NCBI GenBank assembly: GCA_024638475.1
Contig: JAHEKG010000008.1
Coordinates: 1-33,302, forward strand
DNA: 33,302 bases
From: Rhodospirillales bacterium
GTDB lineage: Bacteria > Pseudomonadota > Gammaproteobacteria > Steroidobacterales > JAHEKG01
Direction: 5' to 3'
Under the pieces are notes generated by a model. The model saw only the letters and a list, made by a program, of their open reading frames with translations. It was not told the origin of the DNA and did not search any database. Within the stretch, counting starts at the first letter, position 1, and each line of letters begins with the position of its first letter. Shown piece by piece: positions 16,124 through 32,493 of this stretch. The position numbers were made by a program, and so were the translations under genes.

Positions 16124-17152
16124 TTATTTAACATAAGGCATCACGTCCCGCGCGAAGTGCTCCGCCTGGTTCACGGACGCCGTGATCCGCTCACCGTGGG
16201 GGTGGTCCACATCGGATCCGCCGAGAATATAGACGTGATCCAGTCCTAGTTCGATGAGCGCGGAGAGCCTCTCCCGGCACTTGCCCGGGGGGCCGGCGAT
16301 CGTAAACCAGTCGACAAACTCCTCGTCTACCAGGTCCAGGTGGCTGCCCTGGTTCTGCGCGTGCCGCTGCATGTCGTACTCGGTCTTGAGCTTTATGGCG
16401 AGCGGCTTTAACTCGGGCGGCAGGTGATCCACCGGCGCGTGCTTCATGCCGGCGAAGTGGGCGACCAGTCCGGCGATGGTTCGCGCCAGCGTCAGCGCCC
16501 TTTTTTCATCCGGATCGCAAACCAGGTTGATGTAGGCGCCGACCTGGATGGAGTCGCGACGCCGGCCCGTTTCGGCCAAACGTGCATGGAGCGTGTCGAG
16601 TGCCCACTTGACCTGACTCGCCGCGCTGCCTACCGCGAAACTGACCCGGTCGGCCACATCGGCGGCCATGCGAATGGTCTTCGGCCCCGTGCAGGCCACA
16701 TCCACCGGTACGGGTGGGATGACCTCGGGGTCGATCCAACGCATCCGCGAAGGGTAGCCGTCGAGGTCGACGACTTCGCCCCGCACATAGGCCTGAATCG
16801 CGGTGATGCACTCGCGCAGCTCCTTGGTGTTGGCCTGCCGTCGACCGATATGCGCAGCCGCGGAGTCGCCCCGGCCGATGCCGCAAATGGCCCGGCCACC
16901 GGATTCCGCCTGTAGGGTCGCGATTGCGGAAGCCGTCACCGCCGCCACGCGGGTGACCGGGTTGGTGACGCCGGTGCCGAGCTTGAGTGTGCTGGTCGCC
17001 GCGGCCGCTAGGCTGAGCTGCCCGTAGGGGTCGGAACTCAGGTTCTGGGTGTCGGGAGTGACTAAGACGTTGAAGCCCATGTCTTCTACCCGGCGTGCCA
17101 GCTTGGCGGTGTAGCCAGGCGACGGCTCAAAGACCATTCCGAATTCAGTCAT
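16124..17152 (-). CDS. LLM-class, probably F420-dependent oxidoreductase
   Basis: The 342-residue protein is a luciferase-like (LLM) TIM-barrel enzyme. It begins MTEFGMVFEPSPGYTAKLARRVEDMGFNVLVTPDTQ, has the LKLGTGVTNPVTR strand-loop and the GRAICGIGRGDSAAAHIGR motif, and ends with a glycine-rich phosphate site (GLDHVYILGGSD). Family members reduce or oxidise substrates with F420 or FMN. The IGRGDSA pattern and the methylene-H4MPT-reductase-like layout favour F420. The gene is divergent from cofD with only 84 bases between start codons, so shared control with F420 synthesis is likely. The substrate is unknown. That it uses F420 rather than FMN is inferred from family and location. Confidence 0.87.
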   Translation of the reverse strand: MTEFGMVFEPSPGYTAKLARRVEDMGFNVLVTPDTQNLSSDPYGQLSLAAAATSTLKLGTGVTNPVTRVAAVTASAIATLQAESGGRAICGIGRGDSAAAHIGRRQANTKELRECITAIQAYVRGEVVDLDGYPSRMRWIDPEVIPPVPVDVACTGPKTIRMAADVADRVSFAVGSAASQVKWALDTLHARLAETGRRRDSIQVGAYINLVCDPDEKRALTLARTIAGLVAHFAGMKHAPVDHLPPELKPLAIKLKTEYDMQRHAQNQGSHLDLVDEEFVDWFTIAGPPGKCRERLSALIELGLDHVYILGGSDVDHPHGERITASVNQAEHFARDVMPYVK

Positions 17153-17236
17153 GCCGGTGGATATTGCGTAAAGGGGGGTGGATCGCCATGATAAAAGTCA
17201 GCCTATTCGTTGCGACAGCTTGCCGAGTACCGATCC

Positions 17237-18244
17237 ATGATAGACGAGGTTAAAGACGGCGTCGCCCCGTTTGGCAAGCCACCCCGGGTAGTCGCCTTAT
17301 CGGGGGGCGTGGGCGGTGCCAAGCTTGCACTCGGCTTGGCGCGTACGCTACCCGGGCATGAACTCATGGTCGTCGCCAACACGGCCGATGACTTCCATCA
17401 CCTGGGTTTGCGGGTCTCACCGGACATCGACACGCTGCTCTACACCCTAGCCGACTTGAATAACCCGGATACAGGGTGGGGGCAGCGCAATGAGACCTGG
17501 TCTTTCATGGATGCCTTGACGACGCTGCGCCCGGACAGCCGTTGGTTCAACCTCGGCGACCGCGATCTGGCTACCCACCTGGTGCGAACAGCGCAGTTGG
17601 AGCAAGGCGTTGCCTTGAGCAACGTGACCCGATTCCTCGCGGAGGCCTTCGGGATCACTGTTCAGGTGGTACCGATGTGCGACGAGCCCGTCGCGACGCG
17701 GGTCCAAGTCGAGCTGGACGGGGAGCAAGTCTGGTTGCCTTTCCAAGAATATTTCGTGAAGTGGAAGACCGAGCCGCCGGTAGCAAGGGTGGACTATGTC
17801 GGCGCCGAGTACGCAACGGTACCCGCACCGGTGCGTACGGCGTTGGCGGGCGAGCACCTCGACGCGGTGGTGATCTGCCCCTCCAACCCGTACCTCAGCA
17901 TCGACCCGATTCTGGCCGTGAGTGGTATGCGGGAGTTGATCGGCAATGCCCGCGCCCCCGTTGTCGCGGTTTCGCCCCTGGTGGCGGGGCGTGCCATCAA
18001 GGGACCCACGGCCAAAATGATGACCGAAATGGGGTTGAGCCCGGATGCACGGCGCATCGCCGAGCACTATGGGGGTATCATTGACGGATTCGTTCTCGAC
18101 AACGCCGCCGAAGGCGAACGACGCGACATCGAAGCCATGGGTATCAAGGTCATCCTCACCAACACGATCATGAAATCGCTACAAGACCGCATCGCCTTAG
18201 CGGGAACCGTGTTGCGGTTTGCGCGGGCACTGGCCGATGCATAA
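17237..18244 (+). CDS. cofD: 2-phospho-L-lactate (or phosphoenolpyruvate) transferase of F420 synthesis
   Basis: CofD (335 residues) joins the GDP-activated phospho-C3 unit made by CofC to the deazaflavin Fo, giving F420-0 or dehydro-F420-0. Diagnostic motifs are VVALSGGVGGAKLALGLAR near the N-terminus, NTADDFHHLGLRVSPDIDTLLYTL in the Fo-binding region, and ICPSNPYLSIDPIL. The track begins at a TTG at 17210; I use the ATG at 17237. The gene heads the cofDCGH block, with cofC starting 8 bases before its stop. The bacterial homologue in Actinobacteria is called FbiA. Whether the C3 donor is phospholactate, PEP or phosphoglycerate cannot be told from this sequence alone. Confidence 0.95.
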   Translation: MIDEVKDGVAPFGKPPRVVALSGGVGGAKLALGLARTLPGHELMVVANTADDFHHLGLRVSPDIDTLLYTLADLNNPDTGWGQRNETWSFMDALTTLRPDSRWFNLGDRDLATHLVRTAQLEQGVALSNVTRFLAEAFGITVQVVPMCDEPVATRVQVELDGEQVWLPFQEYFVKWKTEPPVARVDYVGAEYATVPAPVRTALAGEHLDAVVICPSNPYLSIDPILAVSGMRELIGNARAPVVAVSPLVAGRAIKGPTAKMMTEMGLSPDARRIAEHYGGIIDGFVLDNAAEGERRDIEAMGIKVILTNTIMKSLQDRIALAGTVLRFARALADA

Positions 18245-18917
18245 CGGGCGGCCCGCTGTGCAGGTACTGGTGCCGGTCAAACCGCTAACGGATTCGAAGC
18301 TGCGCCTAGCAACGCTGCTAACGCCTGCGGAGCGTGCGGAGTTCACCTTGCGGATGCTCGAGGATGTGCTTGCCAATCTCGCCGGGACACCGACCATTGC
18401 GAACGTTGCAGTCGTCAGCAGCGACCCGGATATATTGCATCTCGCGAGCCAGCGCGACGCCCGGGTCATTGTGGAAGCGGCCGCCTCCCCGCCGAGCGAC
18501 GATGCGCTCAATGAGGCGTTGGCGTTCGCCGCGGGCCAGCTGCCCGGCGCGACGCCGCTGATGGTGGTGCCGGGCGATGTGCCGCTGGTCGATTCCACCA
18601 CCTATGCGGCGGCTATCGAGGCCTGGCCGGATGGTATCGGTGCTGTCAGATCCCAGGATGGTGGTACGAACGCCCTATTGAGCCCACAGCCCGGGGCCAT
18701 CCCGTATCGTTTCGGGGCCGACAGTCTCGAATTGCATCGCGCAGCGGCGGAAGCCAGGCAGCTACCCTTCCACATCATGGAATATCCGCTGTGGGCAAGG
18801 GATATCGACTCGCCGGACGACCTCGTTTGGCTCGCTCAACACGGCAGGCGTTGCAGTAGCGCTGAGTTCGCCGAGCAACTGCTGGTTGCCAAGGACATCC
18901 TGAAGCGCAGCGCATGA
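18237..18917 (+). CDS. cofC: phospho-C3 guanylyltransferase of F420 synthesis (CofC/FbiD)
   Basis: This is a 226-residue nucleotidyltransferase with the CofC motifs VLVPVKPLTDSKLRLATLL (nucleotide and phosphate binding), VPGDVPLVDSTTYAAAI (metal-binding Asp region) and DGGTNALLSPQPGAIPYRFG. It uses GTP to activate a three-carbon phosphoacid for CofD. Different lineages use 2-phospholactate, phosphoenolpyruvate or 3-phosphoglycerate, and I cannot assign which. The ATG at 18237 overlaps the end of cofD by 8 bases. The TTG start in the track is unnecessary. Its stop overlaps the cofG start as ATGA, so the genes are translationally coupled. Confidence 0.94.
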   Translation: MHNGRPAVQVLVPVKPLTDSKLRLATLLTPAERAEFTLRMLEDVLANLAGTPTIANVAVVSSDPDILHLASQRDARVIVEAAASPPSDDALNEALAFAAGQLPGATPLMVVPGDVPLVDSTTYAAAIEAWPDGIGAVRSQDGGTNALLSPQPGAIPYRFGADSLELHRAAAEARQLPFHIMEYPLWARDIDSPDDLVWLAQHGRRCSSAEFAEQLLVAKDILKRSA

Positions 18918-20185
18918 ACGACCACGATTGGCTCAAAGCGCCGTTGGCGGAACTCTGCGAGCGTGCCGATACTATCCGCAATGACGGATTCGGCAATTTA
19001 GTGACCTATTCGCGCAAGGTCTTCGTACCGTTGACGATGTTATGCCGCGACGTCTGCCATTACTGTACCTTCGCCCAAACACCGCGGCACCTTGCCGCGG
19101 CGTTTCTGCCGCCGGAGCAGGTGATGGACATCGCCTTACGGGGCAAAGCCGCGGGTTGTAAAGAGGTGTTGTTCACGCTCGGCGACAAGCCGGAGCTGCG
19201 CTATAAAGCAGCGCGGGACGCCTTGGATGAATTGGGTTACGCGACGACCCTTGAATATGTCGCGGCGATGGCCGAACGCGTGGTCGAAGAAACGGGCCTG
19301 TTGCCTCATCTCAACCCTGGGGTTCTGTCGGCAGATGACTACCGTCGCTTGCGCCCCTTTGCGCCGTCGATGGGATTGATGCTGGAGTCCGCGGCCGCTC
19401 GCCTCTGTGAACAGGGTCAACCCCACCACGGGTCGCCCGACAAGGTGCCCGAGGTTCGCCTAAACAGCATCGCCGAGGCCGGACGGGCAGGTGTGCCGTT
19501 GACCACCGGTTTGCTGGTGGGTATTGGTGAGACGCGTGCGGAGCGCATCGAAAGCCTCCAGGCGTTGCACGCCATTCATGCGCAGTACGGGCATATTCAA
19601 GAACTGATCATTCAGAATTTCGTTCCCAAGGCAGCGACCAAAATGCATGCGGCGCCCGCACCCGACTTCGACGAGTTGCGGTGGACCATCGCCGTGGCGC
19701 GGCTGATGTTTGGGCAGCAGATGAGCATTCAAGTACCGCCGAACCTGAATGCTGGTCGGCTGCGTGAGTTAGTGGCCGCGGGGGTCAACGATTGGGGCGG
19801 GGTTTCGCCCATCACGCCGGATCATGTGAATCCGGAAGCGCCGTGGCCGCACCTCGAAGAGCTCGCTGCCGAGACCAAGGCGGCGGGAAAGCATTTGATC
19901 GAACGCCTAACGATCTATCCCGCTTACATTCACGATGCGGAGCGCTGGTTGGATCCCGGCTTGCGTCCGAGGGTGCTGAAGTGGACGGATGCCGATGGTT
20001 TGGCGCGCGACGATCACTGGGCCGCCGGGCAAGCCCAGGGCGAAAAACCTCAACCGCCAAGCCAAGCGTGCAGGTCGCAGAAACAAAGCCTATTGCAAAA
20101 AGCCCGCGAGGGCCTGGGCTTCAGCGAAGCCGAGACGGTGGCGCTGTTCAGGGCCCGCGGTGATGAATTCGACGAGATTTGGTAG
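18914..20185 (+). CDS. cofG: Fo synthase subunit CofG carrying a CofH-type linker helix
   Basis: This radical-SAM enzyme has a CxxxCxxC motif at C44, C48 and C51 (CRDVCHYCTFAQTPRH). Other CofG signatures are EVLFTLGDKPELRY, LLPHLNPGVLSADDY, GLLVGIGETRAERIESL and NDWGGVSPITPDHVNPEAPWP. With CofH it makes the deazaflavin Fo from tyrosine and 5-amino-6-ribitylaminouracil. At 423 residues it is long for a stand-alone CofG. The last ~60 residues are a polar linker followed by KAREGLGFSEAETVALFRARGDEFDEIW. That resembles the helix expected at the N-terminus of CofH and in the linker of fused FbiC. The ATGA overlap with cofC fixes the start. It ends at TAG 20183-20185. Confidence 0.93.
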   Translation: MNDHDWLKAPLAELCERADTIRNDGFGNLVTYSRKVFVPLTMLCRDVCHYCTFAQTPRHLAAAFLPPEQVMDIALRGKAAGCKEVLFTLGDKPELRYKAARDALDELGYATTLEYVAAMAERVVEETGLLPHLNPGVLSADDYRRLRPFAPSMGLMLESAAARLCEQGQPHHGSPDKVPEVRLNSIAEAGRAGVPLTTGLLVGIGETRAERIESLQALHAIHAQYGHIQELIIQNFVPKAATKMHAAPAPDFDELRWTIAVARLMFGQQMSIQVPPNLNAGRLRELVAAGVNDWGGVSPITPDHVNPEAPWPHLEELAAETKAAGKHLIERLTIYPAYIHDAERWLDPGLRPRVLKWTDADGLARDDHWAAGQAQGEKPQPPSQACRSQKQSLLQKAREGLGFSEAETVALFRARGDEFDEIW

Positions 20186-21261
20186 CCGACCAGCTTAGAA
20201 GGGAGGTCAACGGCGAGACGGTGGCGTATGTTGTCAACCGCAACATCAACTACACCAACGTGTGTACTTATAAATGTACGTTTTGCGCTTTCTCCAAAGG
20301 CAAGACGCACGAAGATTTGCGCGGGGCGCCTTACCTCATCGATTTCGATGAAATTATCAGGCGCAGTGAGGAGGCATGGAGTCGGGGCGCTACCGAAGTC
20401 TGTATGCAGGGCGGTATTCACCCGGATTTTACTGGCGAGACCTACGTAGAGATTTGTAGAGCGGTCAAGGCCGCCGTCCCGGACATGCATGTGCACGCGT
20501 TCTCGCCCCTGGAAGTTACCCAAGGCGCAGCCACGTTGGGCATTCCGGTACCGAGGTTCTTGACGAATTTAAAGGCAGCCGGACTGGGTACACTGCCGGG
20601 TACGGCAGCCGAGATTCTCGATGATGAAGTTCGCGCTACCCTGTGCCCCGACAAAATCAATACCCAACAGTGGCTGGATGTGGTGGCCGCCGCGCACGAT
20701 CTCGGTATGCCGACGACCGCCACGATCATGTTTGGTCATATGGAAAGGCCCGAGCATTGGGCCCGACATCTGGCGCGGCTGCGGGCACAGCAACTGGCCA
20801 GCGGCGGCTTTACGGAATTCGTGCCGTTGCCCTTCGTGCATATGGAGGCGCCGCTATACCGCCGAGGCCATGCGCGGCCGGGGCCGACGTACCGAGAGGC
20901 CGTGCTGATGCATGCCGTGGCACGGTTGGTCTTGCATCCGGTGATCACGAACATCCAGGCGTCGTGGACCAAATTGGGGCCGGAGGGGGCAAGTCACGTT
21001 TTGAACTGCGGTGCCAATGATCTCGGCGGCACGCTGATGAACGAATCGATTTCCAAAGCCGCGGGCGCCGGCCACGGACAGGAACTACGACCCGAACGCA
21101 TGGAGGCTTTGATCGCTGCTGCGGGCCGGATTCCGCAGCAGCGGACGACGTTGTATCAACCCGTGCCGGCCGAGCGGCGGCAGGCATCGTTCGGCGCCGA
21201 GCCGGTCCAGCCGGTCGTTAATCGCCCACTGCGGCGCCTGACGGGTCAGCCGAGGTTGTAG
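20179..21261 (+). CDS. cofH: Fo synthase subunit CofH, N-terminally short
   Basis: This radical-SAM partner of CofG joins tyrosine to 5-amino-6-ribitylaminouracil. Motifs are VVNRNINYTNVCTYKCTFCAF with ligands C29, C33 and C36, then CMQGGIHPDFTGETY, HVHAFSPLEV, TATIMFGHMERPEHW, PLPFVHMEAPLY and NIQASWTKLGPEGA. The only start near the beginning is a TTG at 20179, overlapping the cofG stop by 7 bases and lacking a clear ribosome site. A GTG at 20221 is the other option. Typical CofH has roughly 25-30 residues before this point; here that helix lies in the cofG frame. The gene may therefore be the second half of a frameshifted fbiC. Confidence 0.93.
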   Translation: MVADQLRREVNGETVAYVVNRNINYTNVCTYKCTFCAFSKGKTHEDLRGAPYLIDFDEIIRRSEEAWSRGATEVCMQGGIHPDFTGETYVEICRAVKAAVPDMHVHAFSPLEVTQGAATLGIPVPRFLTNLKAAGLGTLPGTAAEILDDEVRATLCPDKINTQQWLDVVAAAHDLGMPTTATIMFGHMERPEHWARHLARLRAQQLASGGFTEFVPLPFVHMEAPLYRRGHARPGPTYREAVLMHAVARLVLHPVITNIQASWTKLGPEGASHVLNCGANDLGGTLMNESISKAAGAGHGQELRPERMEALIAAAGRIPQQRTTLYQPVPAERRQASFGAEPVQPVVNRPLRRLTGQPRL

Positions 21262-25255: not shown

Positions 25256-25876
25256 ATGAATATTCGATTACTGAGCCTCATGTTGATGTTCGCCTTGAGC
25301 GGCTGCGCCGGCATGAGCCAACAAGAGTGTCAGGTAACCGACTGGCGTACTGTCGGTTATGAAGATGGTGCGAGAGGTGTTAGCCAAACTCATATCGCGA
25401 GCTACCGTAAGAGTTGTGGTAAGCACGGCGTAGCTCCGGATCTCGACGCCTATCGAGCAGGTCACGCGGATGGCGTGGAAGTCTTTTGCCAGCCCGGGAA
25501 CGGTTTCAATGTCGGCGCGTCGGGGCGCAATTACCAAGGCGTGTGCCCAGCCCACATGGAGGACGAGTTCCTCCGCAGCTATACCGCCGGACGTGAGTTA
25601 CACCGCCTGCGGGCAGCCTTGAATCGCACCAACAGTCAAATCACCTACCGCGAGAGAGAACTGGAAGATCTCGGTGAAGAGCTCAAGTTGCTTACGGCCG
25701 AACTCATCGCGGAAGACACGACGGCAGAACGCCGGGTGATCGTGATCGTCGAGACGAAGGAAGTAGCCGAAGATCGAGGCAGGTTAGAGTCCGAAATCCG
25801 TGAACTGGAGCGTGATCGCGCTACCTTGCGGGAGCAGCTTGCTAGCTACGAGGCATCTTTAGCCTACGATTTTTGA
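25256..25876 (+). CDS. DUF2799 lipoprotein with C-terminal coiled coil
   Basis: This lipoprotein has 206 residues. Its signal peptide ends in the lipobox LSGC (MNIRLLSLMLMFALSGCAGMS, lipidated C17). The residue after the cysteine is alanine, which favours outer-membrane sorting. The DUF2799 region shows WRTVGYEDGARGVSQTHIASYRKSCGKHG and YRAGHADGVEVFCQPGNGFNVGASGRNYQGVCP. A charged helical segment of about 80 residues follows (heptad-like, LEDLGEELKLLTAELIAE and LESEIRELERDRATLREQL) and probably forms a coiled coil. The ATG at 25256 has AGGTG six bases upstream; the longer track ORF has no support. It overlaps the end of the convergent E2 gene by 13 bases. The function is unknown. Confidence 0.86.
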   Translation: MNIRLLSLMLMFALSGCAGMSQQECQVTDWRTVGYEDGARGVSQTHIASYRKSCGKHGVAPDLDAYRAGHADGVEVFCQPGNGFNVGASGRNYQGVCPAHMEDEFLRSYTAGRELHRLRAALNRTNSQITYRERELEDLGEELKLLTAELIAEDTTAERRVIVIVETKEVAEDRGRLESEIRELERDRATLREQLASYEASLAYDF

Positions 25877-27135
25877 TTGTCGCCGCTTGGTTTTGCCGCG
25901 TCGGGAAACAGGGCCGTAGGATGCTCCAGTAGCGCCTTCAGATGATGAATCAGCGCCGCTGCCACATAACCGTCCACGAAACGATGATCGAACGAGGATG
26001 AGATATTCATCATCTTTCGAATCACGATCTCGCCGTTGACGACAGCCGGCCTGTCCATCGCGCGATTGATGGCGATGATTGCCAACTCGGGCGGGTTGAC
26101 GATCGGAGTAGCGACGACGGCGCCTAACTTCCCCAGGCTCGTAAGGGTGATCGTCGAACCCTTCAGCTGATCCGGGGTGGCGGTATCGTCCCGCGCCGCT
26201 TGCGCGACGGCCGCCGCTTGCTTGGCCAGTTGCCATAGCGAACGCGTTTGCGCGTCGCGTATCACCGGTACTTTGAGACCGGCTTCGGTATGCGTTGCCA
26301 ACCCAATGTGCACCGCACTATGCTGCAATAATAGATGACGGTCTTTGTCGTACAACGCATTACACTGTGGGTGCTTCTTTAGCGCATGGACAAGCGCGAG
26401 CATGATAAACGGCAAGTAGGTGAGTCTGCCTCGCTCGGCACCGTACTTGTTGTTTAGATGGTTACGTAGCTTGTCCAGATTAGTAATGTCGATCTCTTCA
26501 ACGTAGGCAAAGTGCGGGATCTCCCTGTTGGCCTCCGCCATACGCTGGGCGATACGTCGCCGCACGCCCGTTATCTCGATCTCCGTGACCCCAGCGCGTG
26601 CCGCTGGCGGCGCGGTTTCAGGGGGAGGCGGGCTAGTTTGTTGGTCGCCTTGCCAGGATGGGTCCTGCTGCCGCAAGTGAGGTTCTAGATCTTCGCGCCG
26701 AATCCTTCCGTCCGGGCCGGAGCCGTGAATGCCCGTGAGGTCGATGCCCGCGTCCCGCGCCAGGCGCCGGATCGATGGCGACGTGAGGCTACGCAGGGTT
26801 TCATCGGGGCTCGGGGTCGGCGTGGCGGGCTCAGGTTCGGCCGCAGCCGTCGCTTCGGAAGCCCGTGCGGGTTGCTGCGGCTCGTTGGTCTGCTCAGCCG
26901 TCTCGAAGACGATGATTTCGGTGCCCACGGCGACGGAGTCACCTGCCGATCCCACCAACGAGACGACTCGCCCCGTCACCGGCGCCGGCAGCTCGACCGT
27001 CGCCTTTTCGGTCATGACGTCGGCGATGACCTGGTCTTCGGCAACGTTGTCACCGGGTTTGACATGCCAGGCGACGATTTCCGCTTCCACGGTGCCTTCG
27101 CCCAGATCGGGAAGCTTGAAGCTGTAGGTACTCAA
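25864..27135 (-). CDS. bkdB: 2-oxoacid dehydrogenase E2, branched-chain type dihydrolipoamide acyltransferase
   Basis: E2 has 423 residues in three parts. The lipoyl domain ends around residue 77, with the lipoylated lysine K44 in DVMTEKATVELPAPV. The peripheral-subunit-binding domain is SPSIRRLARDAGIDLTGIHGSGPDGRIRREDL. The C-terminal acyltransferase domain has the HRFVDG active-site motif (SSSFDHRFVDGYVAAAL). The start is TTG at 27135, one base after the E1beta stop, with GGAG seven bases upstream; it yields MSTYSFKLPDLGEG, the expected N-terminus. It would transfer branched-chain acyl groups to CoA together with the two E1 genes upstream. No E3 (lpd) gene is in the window, so E3 must be encoded elsewhere. 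Confidence 0.93.
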   Translation of the reverse strand: MSTYSFKLPDLGEGTVEAEIVAWHVKPGDNVAEDQVIADVMTEKATVELPAPVTGRVVSLVGSAGDSVAVGTEIIVFETAEQTNEPQQPARASEATAAAEPEPATPTPSPDETLRSLTSPSIRRLARDAGIDLTGIHGSGPDGRIRREDLEPHLRQQDPSWQGDQQTSPPPPETAPPAARAGVTEIEITGVRRRIAQRMAEANREIPHFAYVEEIDITNLDKLRNHLNNKYGAERGRLTYLPFIMLALVHALKKHPQCNALYDKDRHLLLQHSAVHIGLATHTEAGLKVPVIRDAQTRSLWQLAKQAAAVAQAARDDTATPDQLKGSTITLTSLGKLGAVVATPIVNPPELAIIAINRAMDRPAVVNGEIVIRKMMNISSSFDHRFVDGYVAAALIHHLKALLEHPTALFPDAAKPSGDNQKS

Positions 27136-27136
27136 G

Positions 27137-28150
27137 CTAGCTCTCCAACGCCACCTTGAGCGCGGCAATGACGCGATTTTGCCCGGGAAAGTAGCTCCAC
27201 TCGAAGGCATGGGGATAGGGTGTGTCCCAACCCGCGACTCGCTGGATCGGCGCGTTCAAATGCCAAAAACATTCCTCCTGTACCGTGGCGGCGAGTTCGG
27301 CGCCGAAGCCGCTAAACCGGGTTGCCTCGTGCGCGATCACACAACGGCCCGTGCGCTGGACCGACTTGGCAATAGTATCCGTATCCAGCGGTGCCATGGT
27401 ACAGACATCGATAATATCTGCGCTAACTCCCAACGCCCGGGCGGCGGCCACGCACACGTGCACCATCGTTCCGTAGGTCAGTATCGTGACGGCATCGCCC
27501 TGAGTGACGGTCTTGGCGATGCCCAATGGCAAACCATAGTGATCCTCGGGGACCTCACCGTGGGGATGCTCGCCCCAGCCGACGGCGGGCTTGTCGGGGT
27601 CGCCGTCGAACGGACCGTTGTAGAGCCGTTTGGGTTCGAGGAACAATACGGGATCATCGTCTTCGATGGCACTGATCAGCAAGCCTTTGGCGTCATAGGG
27701 GTTCGAGGGCATCACAACCTTGATTCCACAAATATGCGTGAACAGGCTCTCGGGACTCTGAGAATGAGTTTGGCCACCCCGTATCCCGCCGCCGCAGGGC
27801 GCGCGGATGGTAACCGGGGCCCAGAAACTCCCCGCGCTGCGGTGGCGAAGGCGGGCCAATTGGCTGACGATCTGATCGATTGCCGGGTAGATGTAATCGG
27901 CGAACTGAATTTCGACCACCGGCCGCAGACCGTTTACGGCCATGCCGATCGCGGTGCCGACCATCCCTCCCTCGGCGATTGGCGTGTCCAAGACCCTGTG
28001 TTCGCCGTATTTGCCTTGCAGGCCCTGGGTGCAGCGAAATACGCCGCCGAAGTAACCGATGTCTTGGCCCATCAGGACCACATTGGGATCGCGCTCCAAC
28101 ATATTGTCCATCGCAGAGTTGAGCGCCTGCACCATGTTCATTTGGGCCAC
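27137..28150 (-). CDS. bkdA2: 2-oxoacid dehydrogenase E1 beta subunit (branched-chain type)
   Basis: E1beta has 337 residues. It shows the transketolase-like pyrimidine domain (MNMVQALNSAMDNMLERDPNVVLMGQDIGYFGGVFRCTQGL) and LDTPIAEGGMVGTAIGMAVNGLRPVVEIQFADYIYPAIDQIV. The C-terminal domain has VCTMAPLDTDTIAKSVQRTGRCVIAHEA. Together with E1alpha it decarboxylates 2-oxoacids with thiamine diphosphate. The GGVFRCTQGLQGKYG sequence is typical of the branched-chain (BCKDH) rather than the pyruvate form. The GTG start is 2 bases after the E1alpha stop, and E2 starts 1 base after its end, so all three are coupled. Confidence 0.94.
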   Translation of the reverse strand: MAQMNMVQALNSAMDNMLERDPNVVLMGQDIGYFGGVFRCTQGLQGKYGEHRVLDTPIAEGGMVGTAIGMAVNGLRPVVEIQFADYIYPAIDQIVSQLARLRHRSAGSFWAPVTIRAPCGGGIRGGQTHSQSPESLFTHICGIKVVMPSNPYDAKGLLISAIEDDDPVLFLEPKRLYNGPFDGDPDKPAVGWGEHPHGEVPEDHYGLPLGIAKTVTQGDAVTILTYGTMVHVCVAAARALGVSADIIDVCTMAPLDTDTIAKSVQRTGRCVIAHEATRFSGFGAELAATVQEECFWHLNAPIQRVAGWDTPYPHAFEWSYFPGQNRVIAALKVALES

Positions 28151-28152
28151 GC

Positions 28153-29388
28153 TCAGGACTCGGTTTTGCGCAGTAGTTGGCGCTGTTTGGCGAGATGGGG
28201 CGGCATTTCCTTGAACACGTCATCGAACATCGAATCCGGCGATAGCTGCGGGCCTTGGGTCAACGTGCCAAAGCCCAGCGCCTCTTGCCAAGCCGTCTTG
28301 AAGTTCTCCTCCAGTTCCGACTGCAGCGCATGATGCTGTCGTTCGCTCCATTCACCCAACGCCAATAGATGTTTTTTGAGGCGTTCGATGGGGTCACCCA
28401 AGGGCCAATCGTCCCATTCGGAATCGGGCCGGTAGCGGGACGGGTCGTCACTCGTCGAATGCGCAGAAGCGCGGTAGGTGACCAACTCGACGAGCGTAGG
28501 CCCCGCGCCGGTTCGCGCCCGTTCCGCGGCCCATTGGGTTACGCCGTGGACCGCTAGGAAGTCGTTGCCGTCAACACGTAAACCGGGAACCCCCAAGCCT
28601 AGGCCGCGGGTACTGAAGGGTCCTCTATCACCACCAGCGAAAGCCTGGAAAGTCGAGATCGCCCATTGATTGTTAGTCACGTTGATCACGACCGGGGCTT
28701 GGTATACGGATGCGAAGAGCAGGGCGTTGTGAAAGTCAGCTTCGGCCGTTGAGCCATCGCCGAGCCAGGTGGCGGCAATATTGTCTTCGTCTTTAATCGC
28801 CGCGGCCATCGCCCAGCCCACCGCGTTAGGTGCCTGGATCGCGAGATTACCCGCGATCGTAAAAATGTTGCCCTCTTTCCAATGGTACAGCACGGGTAAC
28901 TGACGGCCTTTGCACATGTCGCCGGTGTTGGACAGACATTGGCACATGAGCTCGACCGGATTGCAGCCCCGGGCGAAAAACAGCCCCTGATTACGATAGG
29001 AGGGGAACAACATGTCGCTGGGCCGCAATGCCATGGCTTGCGCCACCGATACGGCTTCTTCCCCGGTGCTCTTTAGGTAAAAGGAGATTTTGCCCTGCCG
29101 CTGCATGCGCAACATCCGCTCATCGAATATTCGCGTCATTAGCATGTGACGCAGGCCCGTGCGCAGATCCTCCGGCCCCAGTTGGGGATTCCATGGCCCT
29201 ACGGCCGAGTCGTCGTCGCCGAGTACGCGAATGAGCGCCGCGGAAATGGGCTCGATCTCTTGGCAGGTGGCATCGATGTTCGGCCTGGCCACGGCACCAG
29301 CGGGCGAAGTCTCGAGATAGCTGAAATCGGGTCGATCACCTGGCCGCGCGGGGGCTTGAGGGATATGCAGGCGGGAACGTCTGCCCAT
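28153..29388 (-). CDS. bkdA1: 2-oxoacid dehydrogenase E1 alpha subunit (branched-chain type)
   Basis: E1alpha has 411 residues and carries the thiamine diphosphate motif, GDGSTAEADFHNALLFASVYQAPVVINVTNNQWAIS (GDGS...NN). Also visible are MLMTRIFDERMLRMQRQGKISFYLKSTGEEAVSVAQAMAL and the HSTSDDPSRYR loop that carries the regulatory/active-site serines in the BCKDH family. The first ~60 residues are a low-similarity extension, as in Pseudomonas-type bkdA1. AGGA lies six bases before the ATG. It is the first structural gene of the bkd block and follows the XRE/ImmA-like regulator on the same strand after 80 bases. Confidence 0.94.
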   Translation of the reverse strand: MGRRSRLHIPQAPARPGDRPDFSYLETSPAGAVARPNIDATCQEIEPISAALIRVLGDDDSAVGPWNPQLGPEDLRTGLRHMLMTRIFDERMLRMQRQGKISFYLKSTGEEAVSVAQAMALRPSDMLFPSYRNQGLFFARGCNPVELMCQCLSNTGDMCKGRQLPVLYHWKEGNIFTIAGNLAIQAPNAVGWAMAAAIKDEDNIAATWLGDGSTAEADFHNALLFASVYQAPVVINVTNNQWAISTFQAFAGGDRGPFSTRGLGLGVPGLRVDGNDFLAVHGVTQWAAERARTGAGPTLVELVTYRASAHSTSDDPSRYRPDSEWDDWPLGDPIERLKKHLLALGEWSERQHHALQSELEENFKTAWQEALGFGTLTQGPQLSPDSMFDDVFKEMPPHLAKQRQLLRKTES

Positions 29389-29468: not shown

Positions 29469-31001
29469 TTACGGGACGTGGGCTGCCAAGACCTGTTGCC
29501 GCAGGGCCTTGATGCCGTGTTCGCGGGGGACGGCCCGGCGGTTATCGCAGCGGTTGGGCCGTGGGCAATTGGTGCTGCGAGGGCAGATGAGTTTGGCAGG
29601 ATTATCCAGCGAATCGTCCAGCCAATGAATGTTCAATACCCCCGCTGTTTGGCCAATGGCCTGTCGATGCTGGCTACCGATTGCGGTCTGCCCGCCACCG
29701 GAGCGGCAATCTTCGGCGAGTTCGGCAGCCAGGGTCGCGGACTCCCAGCCTTGGGATTCGAGCGCCGGACCCAGGTCGATCCCAACGGATAGCACGTGCG
29801 TATTACCGCCCGCATCGACCTCGCGGAGAGAATGGCAGCAATAAACCAGGCAGCGTTCACCTTCCTGCAGCAACGAAATTCGAGAAACGGGCTGGCCGAT
29901 ATCCGGCCGATGTAATAAATCGAACACGGCCCACTTGGGGCAAGGGTCCGTCACCGCGGTCATGTTGCCCCAGGGGAGCGGTATCCCGTTGCCGCGGTAC
30001 ACGGCCCGCAGATAACCCGGCGGGTAGGCATCGAAGTAGTGCCAGTGCCGGTAGGGGGAAACGGCTGTCATGCGGCGCATGACGACCGCGGGCGTCAGCC
30101 CGAGTTTGTCGCCCAGGGATAGGCTATAGCCTTCCCGCATGAGTTGATGGCGGAACGGCATTTTTGGGCACAACAAAGCGCCGGCGAAAAAGCTGCATTC
30201 GAAATCCCGCCAGGCGAAGAGAATGTCTTGGCTATCCATGCCGCCCAAGGTTTGTTGATCTGCCGAATCCCGATGCCGCCCACCGCTAACATGGGGAGAC
30301 TTAGCACCGTCGCCGTTGTGGAGTAGGCGGTGGCCGAGGTGGGACGCCAAATCGTATTTGAGTCGCGCGGGATTCGCTTGCAGCCCGCGGTTGACGAACA
30401 CCAAGTTGGGGGCCTCATAAAAGGACCGTAGTACGGAGTCGCCCGGCTGGGTTGGCGGCTGATCGAACCAGCGCAGTTGTAAGTCGTGGTGCTTATAAAT
30501 TGCCAACAGGTCGTCAACGCTCAAGGGCAGGCGGCGTTGCCCGACTTCCTCGGCGGCTTTTTCCAGATCCGGAAATTCGTTGCGGTGTTGCTCTTGATAG
30601 GCGCGAATCAGCAATTGGGCGAATTGGCGTCCGCCGGTCCCCGTTTGGGAGAGTAGTTCTGGGATCGCCGTTTGCAATTGTTGTTTGGAGAACAAGAACG
30701 CGGGTTCCAACGGCATGCCCGTGAGGCCCCCGCCACGCGGCTCGGGAATGGGTTGCACCGCGCGGTTCTCATCCAAGAACCAGCGCGGCTCCTTGCGAAA
30801 TACCTGCCCCAACAGGGCGAGCGTGGATTCGGAGGGCGTGCGCTTACCCGTCTCGATCATGCTGAGGTAGGAAACCGAGGGCCCGTGGGCCGGGTCGATT
30901 TGGAGGCAGCGCGTGGATACGTCTTGCAGCGTCAGGCCGTTGCTTTTTCTCAAGGATCGAATCTTGGCCCCGAGAAAGTGGCTTTGGCGCAGCAGGCTCA
31001 T
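29469..31001 (-). CDS. RamB-like XRE/ImmA-IrrE family transcriptional regulator
   Basis: The 510-residue regulator starts with an XRE helix-turn-helix ([51 protein letters not shown]). A middle ImmA/IrrE-type domain follows (residues about 150-320; LDLVFVN-like strand, [14 protein letters not shown]). The usual HExxH metal site is degenerate here (HLGHRL), so protease activity is doubtful. The C-terminal domain ends with cysteines spaced C-x5-C-x5-C ([13 protein letters not shown]). Relatives such as RamB control isocitrate lyase and acetate or short-chain acyl metabolism. It is divergent from isocitrate lyase and upstream of the bkd genes, which suggests control of both. The ligand may be an acyl-CoA (inference). 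Confidence 0.86.
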
Positions 31002-31016
31002 TCGCCAAGTATGCCC

Positions 31017-31053
31017 TGTGAAATTAACGTTGTGAAATTTTTATTGTGGAATT
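31017..31053. promoter_or_regulatory. triple direct repeat TGTGRAATT, 14-base period
   Basis: Three copies of TGTGAAATT, TGTGAAATT and TGTGGAATT start at 31017, 31031 and 31045, exactly 14 bases apart, in the 141-base region between the regulator start (31001) and isocitrate lyase (31143). The last two also form a GAAATT / AATTTC inverted pair. This is a likely binding array for the neighbouring regulator, controlling both divergent genes. A 14-base period is not a whole number of helical turns, so an alternating-face or overlapping palindromic arrangement is possible. Confidence 0.6.
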
Positions 31054-31142
31054 TCGCAAAAATGCCCTCTATGCTTTCCGCTCGTTGGCGTCGAGGCGCC
31101 CGTTTTGGTGGTTGGTCCGCTTACCTCAAGGAACTTCGAAAC

Positions 31143-32426
31143 ATGGATAGAACGAAAGAAATCAAGGCATTAGAGCAATCTTGGCGAGAGCCGCGCTGGC
31201 AGGGCATCCAACGAGGCTATGGCGCTGCCGACGTCGTCAAGTTGCGGGGCTCCGTGATGGTCGAGCATACGCTGGCGCGCCGGGGCGCGGAGCGATTCTG
31301 GCGCATGGTCAACGAAGAAGCGGTCGTCTCGGCCCTGGGCGCCATTACCGGCAACCAAGCCATCCAGGAGGTTCAGGCCGGCCTGAAGGCGATTTATTGC
31401 TCCGGGTGGCAGGTCGCGGGAGACGGCAATTCCGCCGGGGAAATGTACCCCGACCAGAGCCTCTATCCCGTGGACTCGGTACCGCAGATGGTGGAGCGAA
31501 TCAACAACGCGCTGCTGCGCACCGACGAGATCCATCACTTGCAGGGTGATGACAGCATCGATTGGCTTGCCCCGATCATTGCCGATGCGGAAGCCGGTTT
31601 CGGGGGCAACCTCAACGCATTTGAACTCACGAAACATTTGATTCGCGCTGGCGCAGCAGCGGTGCACTTCGAGGACCAACTGTCGTCGGCCAAGAAGTGT
31701 GGGCACATGGGCGGAAAAGTATTGGTGCCGACTCAAGACGCGATTCAAAAGCTCATTGCGGCGCGGTTGGCTGCCGACGTCATGGATGTGCCCACGGTCA
31801 TCATCGCGCGCACGGATGCGAATGCCGCGAATCTGCTGCAGTCCGACGCCGACCCGAGGGACGCCAAATTCCTCACGGGAGAGCGTTCGCCCGAGGGTTT
31901 CCATTACGTGGAACCCGGTATCAACCAGGCCATCGATCGCGGTCTGGCTTATGCGCCCTATGCGGATCTCCTTTGGTGTGAAACGGCCAAACCGAACCTT
32001 GATGAGGCCCGGCAGTTTGCCGAAGCGATTCACGCGCGCTTCCCGGGTAAGCTGCTTGCCTACAACTGCTCGCCGTCCTTCAATTGGAAGGCGAACCTAG
32101 ATGACGCGACGATGCGGCATTTCCGCGAGGAACTCGCCGCCATGGGCTACAAGTACCAATTCATCACCCTGGCGGGCTGGCATTCGCTCAACCTCGGGAT
32201 GTTCGAGCTGGCGAGTGCCTATCGCGAGGAGGGTATGTTTGCCTACTCCCAGTTGCAGGAGCGTGAGTTCGCCCAAGAGGAAAACGGCTTCAGAGCGGCC
32301 AAGCATCAGGCGTTCGTGGGGACGGGCTACTTTGATGCCGTGCAGACGGCTATTAGTGGCGATCAGTCCTCCACGACGGCCCTATCGGGTAGCACCGAAG
32401 AGGAACAGTTTACTGCCGTCGCTTAA
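31143..32426 (+). CDS. aceA: isocitrate lyase
   Basis: The enzyme splits isocitrate into succinate and glyoxylate, the entry to the glyoxylate shunt. The protein has 427 residues from the ATG at 31143, preceded by AAGGAAC. The track ORF starts at 30672, inside the regulator gene, and cannot be right. Signatures are [42 protein letters not shown] and the catalytic KKCGHMGGK (C186). [12 protein letters not shown] and [18 protein letters not shown] are also typical. The length matches the short prokaryotic form. It is divergent from the RamB-like regulator and is followed by a strong terminator, so it is transcribed alone. Confidence 0.97.
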
Positions 32427-32454
32427 CGCGTAGGCCGCTTATCACCACCCCAAC

Positions 32455-32493
32455 GGGGGATCCGGGCAGGCGCTGCCCCGGTCCCCCTTTTTT
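32455..32493 (+). terminator. rho-independent terminator after isocitrate lyase
   Basis: A 15-base stem (GGGGGATCCGGGCAG / CTGCCCCGGTCCCCC, two mismatches) with a GCG loop is followed by six T residues (32488-32493), 29 bases after the aceA stop. It is a classic intrinsic terminator. Confidence 0.88.

Follow-up and report, generated by a model that had tools for sequence, protein, structure and literature searches.

A conserved array of three 14-bp-spaced repeats upstream of isocitrate lyase, a probable operator of a DUF3612 regulator

Within the stretch of DNA that we analyzed (33,302 nucleotides in full; hereafter the window), a regulator gene and an isocitrate lyase gene diverge from a gap of 141 bp. 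The regulator combines an XRE-type helix-turn-helix (HTH) with a domain of unassigned function, DUF3612. A first-pass annotation of the window had pointed to three copies of TGTGRAATT in this gap, upstream of isocitrate lyase, at an exact 14-base period; exact matching confirmed all three copies, their spacing and their location between the two divergent genes (Table 1). Unit 1 is followed by AACG in the window and by WACA in relatives, where it forms a near-palindrome, TGTGAAATTnACA. Exact TGTGRAATT occurs in the window only as these three copies, which also form its sole triple of near-identical 9-mers at equal spacing (period 10-30). The search for further arrays that the annotation had suggested, which we ran for unit pairs at the 14-bp spacing, allowing at most two mismatches, returned this array alone in the genome (3.46 Mb, 82% complete); in relatives, extra arrays precede glyoxylate-shunt genes. 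With one site in a genome that is 82% complete, the array is ruled out as a general genome repeat.

Several other genes in the window deserve mention. Behind the regulator gene, on its strand, come the three genes of a 2-oxoacid dehydrogenase set (E1 alpha, E1 beta, E2). Such a set also lies beside a DUF3612 gene at another locus (L034), in the opposite orientation, and because it is common to both places its pairing with the DUF3612 gene may be functional. Farther away are genes for CofD, a CofH-like radical SAM protein, a second radical SAM protein resembling CofG, and a luciferase-like oxidoreductase, apparently a coenzyme F420 cluster, which is unusual in a gammaproteobacterium. A strong intrinsic terminator, identified by eye, follows isocitrate lyase, so the citrate-lyase-like HpcH/HpaI gene beyond it is probably transcribed separately.

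Table 1. Features of the window discussed in the text, with positions counted from its first letter
Feature	Position	Strand	Remarks
Putative coenzyme F420 cluster	16124-21261		
2-oxoacid dehydrogenase set	25864-29388	-	
XRE-HTH + DUF3612 regulator	29469-31001	-	510 aa; divergent from isocitrate lyase; remote ScfR/PrpR homologue
Candidate promoter of the regulator gene	31008-31036	-	TTCACA (31036-31031, inside unit 2), 17 bp, CATACT (31013-31008); consensus scan only
Whole conserved element	31017-31054	+	about 37-38 bp; ungapped alignment of 89 loci
Probable operator unit 1	31017-31025	+	TGTGAAATT; exact match
Probable operator unit 2	31031-31039	+	TGTGAAATT; exact match
Probable operator unit 3	31045-31053	+	TGTGGAATT; exact match; consensus WGTSAAATT; over the -35 region of the isocitrate lyase promoter
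Predicted -10 hexamer, isocitrate lyase promoter	31070-31075	+	TATGCT; 53 bp from the array's first base
Isocitrate lyase AceA	31143-32426	+	427 aa; Pfam PF00463, NCBIfam NF011645 (739 bits, cut-off 562)
Intrinsic terminator	32453-32492		
HpcH/HpaI gene	32548		

The annotation had taken the regulator to be RamB-like. In its N-terminal part, two HTH families match above cut-off, HTH_3 (E 1.5e-7) and HTH_31, and DUF3612 (PF12268) scores 206 bits against a gathering cut-off of 25. The ScfRs domain, PF09856, by which Pfam identifies RamB and PrpR, does not match the protein even at E 10 and is absent from the window's own genome; the IrrE/M78-like domain (PF06114) expected in ScfR proteins between HTH and C-terminal domain matches weakly, below its cut-off (E 0.023). 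Among PDB entries, the AF2 model of the regulator (pLDDT 77.5, pTM 0.80) strongly matches only the structures 6CZ6, 6CYY, 6CYJ and 6D2S of the Mycobacterium tuberculosis protein MtPrpR (E 2e-9 to 2e-8). A profile comparison with two ScfR proteins of the same class by hhalign gives a probability of 96.2% and E 2e-9 over 349 columns, and aligns the invariant DPC-x-x-W of DUF3612 with the ACPLW motif of ScfR. Because fold and profile both match in spite of the absent PF09856, we regard the regulator as remotely homologous to ScfR proteins, with a C-terminal family of its own. "RamB-like" is thus apt as to remote homology and resemblance to RamB-type control, but the protein is not a Pfam-defined RamB/ScfR, having HTH and DUF3612 instead. 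Four cysteines are invariant in the regulator's family (C354, C473, C479 and C485), at places comparable to the Fe-S ligands of PrpR, with a different C-terminal spacing.

We collected homologues of the regulator from relatives and a public genome collection, giving 96 loci, of which 93 are distinct, the window included. Three units at a 14-bp period are present in 89/93 distinct loci, from beta- and gammaproteobacteria, a proportion that holds for DUF3612 loci and does not sample isocitrate lyase promoters without bias, since the loci were gathered by way of the regulator. In three of the other four the best fit is 15 bp, and one has a weak array. The ungapped alignment of the 89 loci gives the consensus TGTGAAATTWACAnTGTGAARTTTCYANWGTSAAATTY. 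Information per column reaches 1.95 bits within this element and is near zero on both flanks, and neither -14 nor +42 holds a fourth unit. Between the array and the start codon of the regulator gene there are anywhere from 0 to 100 bp, which indicates that the element is conserved in its own right and not by way of a conserved leader. The three repeats are therefore a real, strongly conserved DNA element.

The array also tracks the regulator from genome to genome. Its absence from close relatives had been named by the annotation as evidence against it; among 59 relatives, it occurs in 17 of the 18 genomes with the regulator versus 2 of the 41 without (Fisher p ~1e-11). In the sole exception among the 18, the regulator gene is truncated at a contig end. 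Of the two regulator-less genomes with an array, one has it 11 bases from a contig end, so that the regulator may lie off the contig, and in the other the match has three mismatches and falls within an open frame. When the class was sampled more widely, the array was present in all 5 genomes with PF12268, versus 13/269 others, and those 13 are lone matches with three mismatches. Across the order, 79/195 genomes contain the triple array, at one to three sites each, and a reversed control pattern occurs in 0/195. Elsewhere in one genome (L146; G026 C1, near 169005), the 5' end of the regulator gene seems to be present in partial copy, together with a degenerate array, apparently as a duplicated fragment.

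The genes next to the array point to a common pathway. Among the 96 loci, the gene divergent from the regulator encodes isocitrate lyase in 30, malate synthase A in 46 and another protein in 20; at one of these last (L009), it is malate synthase G. More telling are arrays away from the regulator. All 11 that we examined precede either isocitrate lyase or a gene like that of malate synthase G, and all 11 have TAnnnT at +53. Four lie before an isocitrate lyase of the 531-aa type, about 28% identical to that of the window (L145, L200, L202, L206), and seven before a small malate-synthase-G-like protein (L143, L144, L199, L203, L205, L209, L210). Records from Vibrio and Pseudoalteromonas (named plasmid collection) have the array between a DUF3612 gene and a small gene annotated "malate synthase". 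The case for a glyoxylate-shunt regulon defined by this element rests most strongly on its presence before genes that belong to the same pathway but differ in ancestry.

It is important to consider the observations that count against this reading. Around 19 loci, mostly from Burkholderiales, have the DUF3612 gene divergent from a gene for an NAD-binding-like protein of ~370 aa instead of a shunt gene, and nearly all of them retain the array (L027, L028, L031-L033, L035, L036, L040, L041, L050, L051, L056, L064, L065, L073, L078, L090, L093, L094). This protein is uncharacterised, with a weak ketopantoate-reductase-type N-terminus. Furthermore, the malate synthase G gene of the window's genome has no array within ~1.4 kb upstream and is thereby ruled out as a second target.

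Among the targets of the array, one that recurs is a small stand-alone relative of malate synthase G (PRK08951; L143, L144, L199, L203, L205, L210, L141). In Vibrio this protein is annotated as malate synthase, yet it appears too small for the enzyme and may act as a partner in regulation or assembly.

The position of the array relative to the predicted promoter is also constrained. TANNNT occurs at +52 to +55 from the array's first base in 81/89 loci, compared with a mean of 0.75 and a maximum of 4 at other offsets. This places a -10 hexamer ~15 bp downstream of the element in those 81/89 loci, and the array at about -65 to -28 relative to the predicted transcription start, which in the window would fall near 31082. 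The best -35 sequence at a spacing of 16-18 bp matches 2-4 of 6 positions and never 5 or 6, which is barely above random sequence. A -10 that is fixed relative to an operator over the -35 region, combined with the lack of a good -35, gives the promoter the look of one that depends on an activator.

On the opposite strand, two arrangements might drive the regulator gene. The pair listed in Table 1, which in the window outscores the other, would begin the transcript at the ATG, i.e., leaderless; in the alignment of relatives, CATACT does not keep its position. The other arrangement is a possible promoter embedded in the array, with TTSACA in unit 3, 17 bp, and TTAATT over unit 1. Its -35 scores 5-6 of 6 in 71/89 loci, and its -10 is poor, mostly 3 of 6 among the 89. 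The asymmetry of unit 1 (ACA at bp 10-12) might have been attributed to the regulator's own -10, an explanation weakened by arrays away from the regulator, which retain ACA.

Our preferred interpretation, to which we assign a probability of roughly 0.68, is that the array is a three-unit operator bound by a DUF3612 regulator dedicated to the glyoxylate shunt, and that this regulator is activating, acyl-CoA-responsive and self-limiting. We infer binding, stoichiometry, activation, ligand and autoregulation. The HTH modules of the regulator would bind the three TGTGAAATT units, probably as three dimers, or as a PrpR-like tetramer with further subunits. The first-pass annotation had called the geometry unusual. 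The 14-bp spacing, 1.33 helical turns, is real but not clearly exceptional, in that related regulators also use tandem boxes, at other spacings. Successive units at this spacing would be turned 120 degrees round the helix, so the complex would have to wrap the DNA and not align on one face. The bound regulator is predicted to cover positions from about -65 to -28 of the promoter, whose -10 is fixed and whose -35 is poor. Its PrpR-like domain would sense an acyl-CoA produced during growth on acetate or fatty acids, a signal proposed by analogy with PrpR and Paracoccus RamB (PMC6765138, PMC10370305). With acyl-CoA present, the bound regulator, probably an activator, would most likely recruit RNA polymerase to the isocitrate lyase gene or, in other places, to that of malate synthase. 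In addition, it would cover its own promoter region and limit its own synthesis, given that the array lies within or adjoins the regulator's core promoter.

An origin by chance, by low complexity, or by slippage in an AT-rich promoter, leaving a tandem repeat with no function, has in its favor that the intergenic stretch is AT-rich inside a GC-rich genome. We consider it practically negligible, and in effect ruled out: none of 60 dinucleotide-preserving shuffles contained such a triple, which bears out the annotation's claim that the repeats exceed chance, and the number, period and sequence of the units are alike in 89/93 loci while the flanks are unconserved. It might instead be supposed that another global regulator, e.g., one like CRP or FadR, binds the array, and that the link to DUF3612 is mere synteny. 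TGTGA does recall a CRP half-site. However, these are direct repeats at 14 bp, unlike the CRP palindrome TGTGA-N6-TCACA; they number one to three sites per genome and not dozens, and they follow the DUF3612 gene genome by genome. We therefore think this alternative very improbable.

A more serious alternative accepts the same operator and regulator and reverses the sign: the array-bound form would be a repressor that blocks access to the -35, and acyl-CoA would release it. This would suit an array that overlies the -35 region of the isocitrate lyase promoter. A repressor acting on a weak promoter is conceivable, since unit 3 can provide a -35 match of 3-4 of 6, and M. tuberculosis RamB represses icl1 (PMC6765138). 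However, the promoter's -35 matches of only 2-4 of 6 are what one expects where transcription depends on an activator, the gap between array and -10 varies by no more than ~1 bp, a constraint that matters more for activation than for repression, and Paracoccus RamB, likewise divergent from glyoxylate-cycle genes, activates them (PMC10370305). On balance we judge repression unlikely, though well worth keeping in mind.

If the array is the operator of the DUF3612 regulator, DUF3612, a domain that occurs in many beta- and gammaproteobacteria, including marine Vibrio and Pseudoalteromonas, gains a specific and testable role, and its probable operator is defined at base resolution. The genes that the array precedes enable many beta- and gammaproteobacteria to live on acetate or fats. 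The switch would govern the retention of carbon from acetate and fat for growth, and so bears on how uncultured bacteria in soils and the sea use acetate and fatty acids. Its architecture, three units at a fixed 14 bp, offers a clean model for how a regulator assembles on DNA without same-face phasing. A wider proposal, which we advance tentatively and at somewhat less than even odds, is that DUF3612 proteins form a branch of acyl-CoA/Fe-S-sensing activators, with a three-unit operator in 120-degree steps on which the complex replaces the -35, and that this operator was recruited independently before isocitrate lyase and malate synthase genes that are related only distantly or not at all.

Among known regulators of the ScfR family, PccR of Rhodobacter sphaeroides is acyl-CoA-responsive, controls propionyl-CoA assimilation and uses tandem, palindromic TTTGCAAA boxes. 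In M. tuberculosis, PrpR boxes have the form TTTGCAAA-N1-TTTGCgAA, and the 4Fe-4S cluster of MtPrpR is held by one cysteine in a GAF-like domain and three C-terminal cysteines (PMC6765138). Our regulator resembles M. tuberculosis PrpR/RamB in the best fold match of its model, in having candidate counterparts of the 4Fe-4S cysteine ligands and in the short repeated boxes that it probably recognises, RamB acting at icl1. It differs in sequence (~17% identity) and in the spacing of the C-terminal cysteines (C-X5-C-X5-C, versus C-X2-C-X4-C in MtPrpR).

We found no account of DUF3612, PF12268 or the unit-1 sequence in the open-licence literature that we searched, and a prior description elsewhere, in subscription papers or motif databases, is possible. 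TGTGAAATT and isocitrate lyase do occur together there in a single paper, on E. coli engineering.

The closest parallel is RamB of Paracoccus denitrificans (class 2, ScfR family), an activator that is divergent from glyoxylate-cycle genes and needs both of its near-identical boxes (PMC10370305). As in that system, an HTH regulator gene diverges from glyoxylate-cycle genes that have near-identical repeated boxes upstream, and CoA-ester sensing may be shared as well; repeated boxes before icl/ms genes, with a divergent regulator gene, are the RamB-type operator trait that the array has. However, P. denitrificans RamB uses a pair of 14-bp boxes separated by 18 bp (TGACAAACCTTACA and TGACAATACTGACT, from the paper's oligonucleotides, PMC10370305), in contrast to three direct units at 14 bp in the window, and it is an ScfR-family member, whereas the window's regulator carries DUF3612. 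The array, TGTGAAATT three times at 14 bp, matches neither the known TTTGCAAA box nor the Paracoccus class 2 boxes, in sequence or in spacing. By analogy, we suggest that the system works like Paracoccus RamB and differs from it in the sequence, number and spacing of its boxes and in its protein family.
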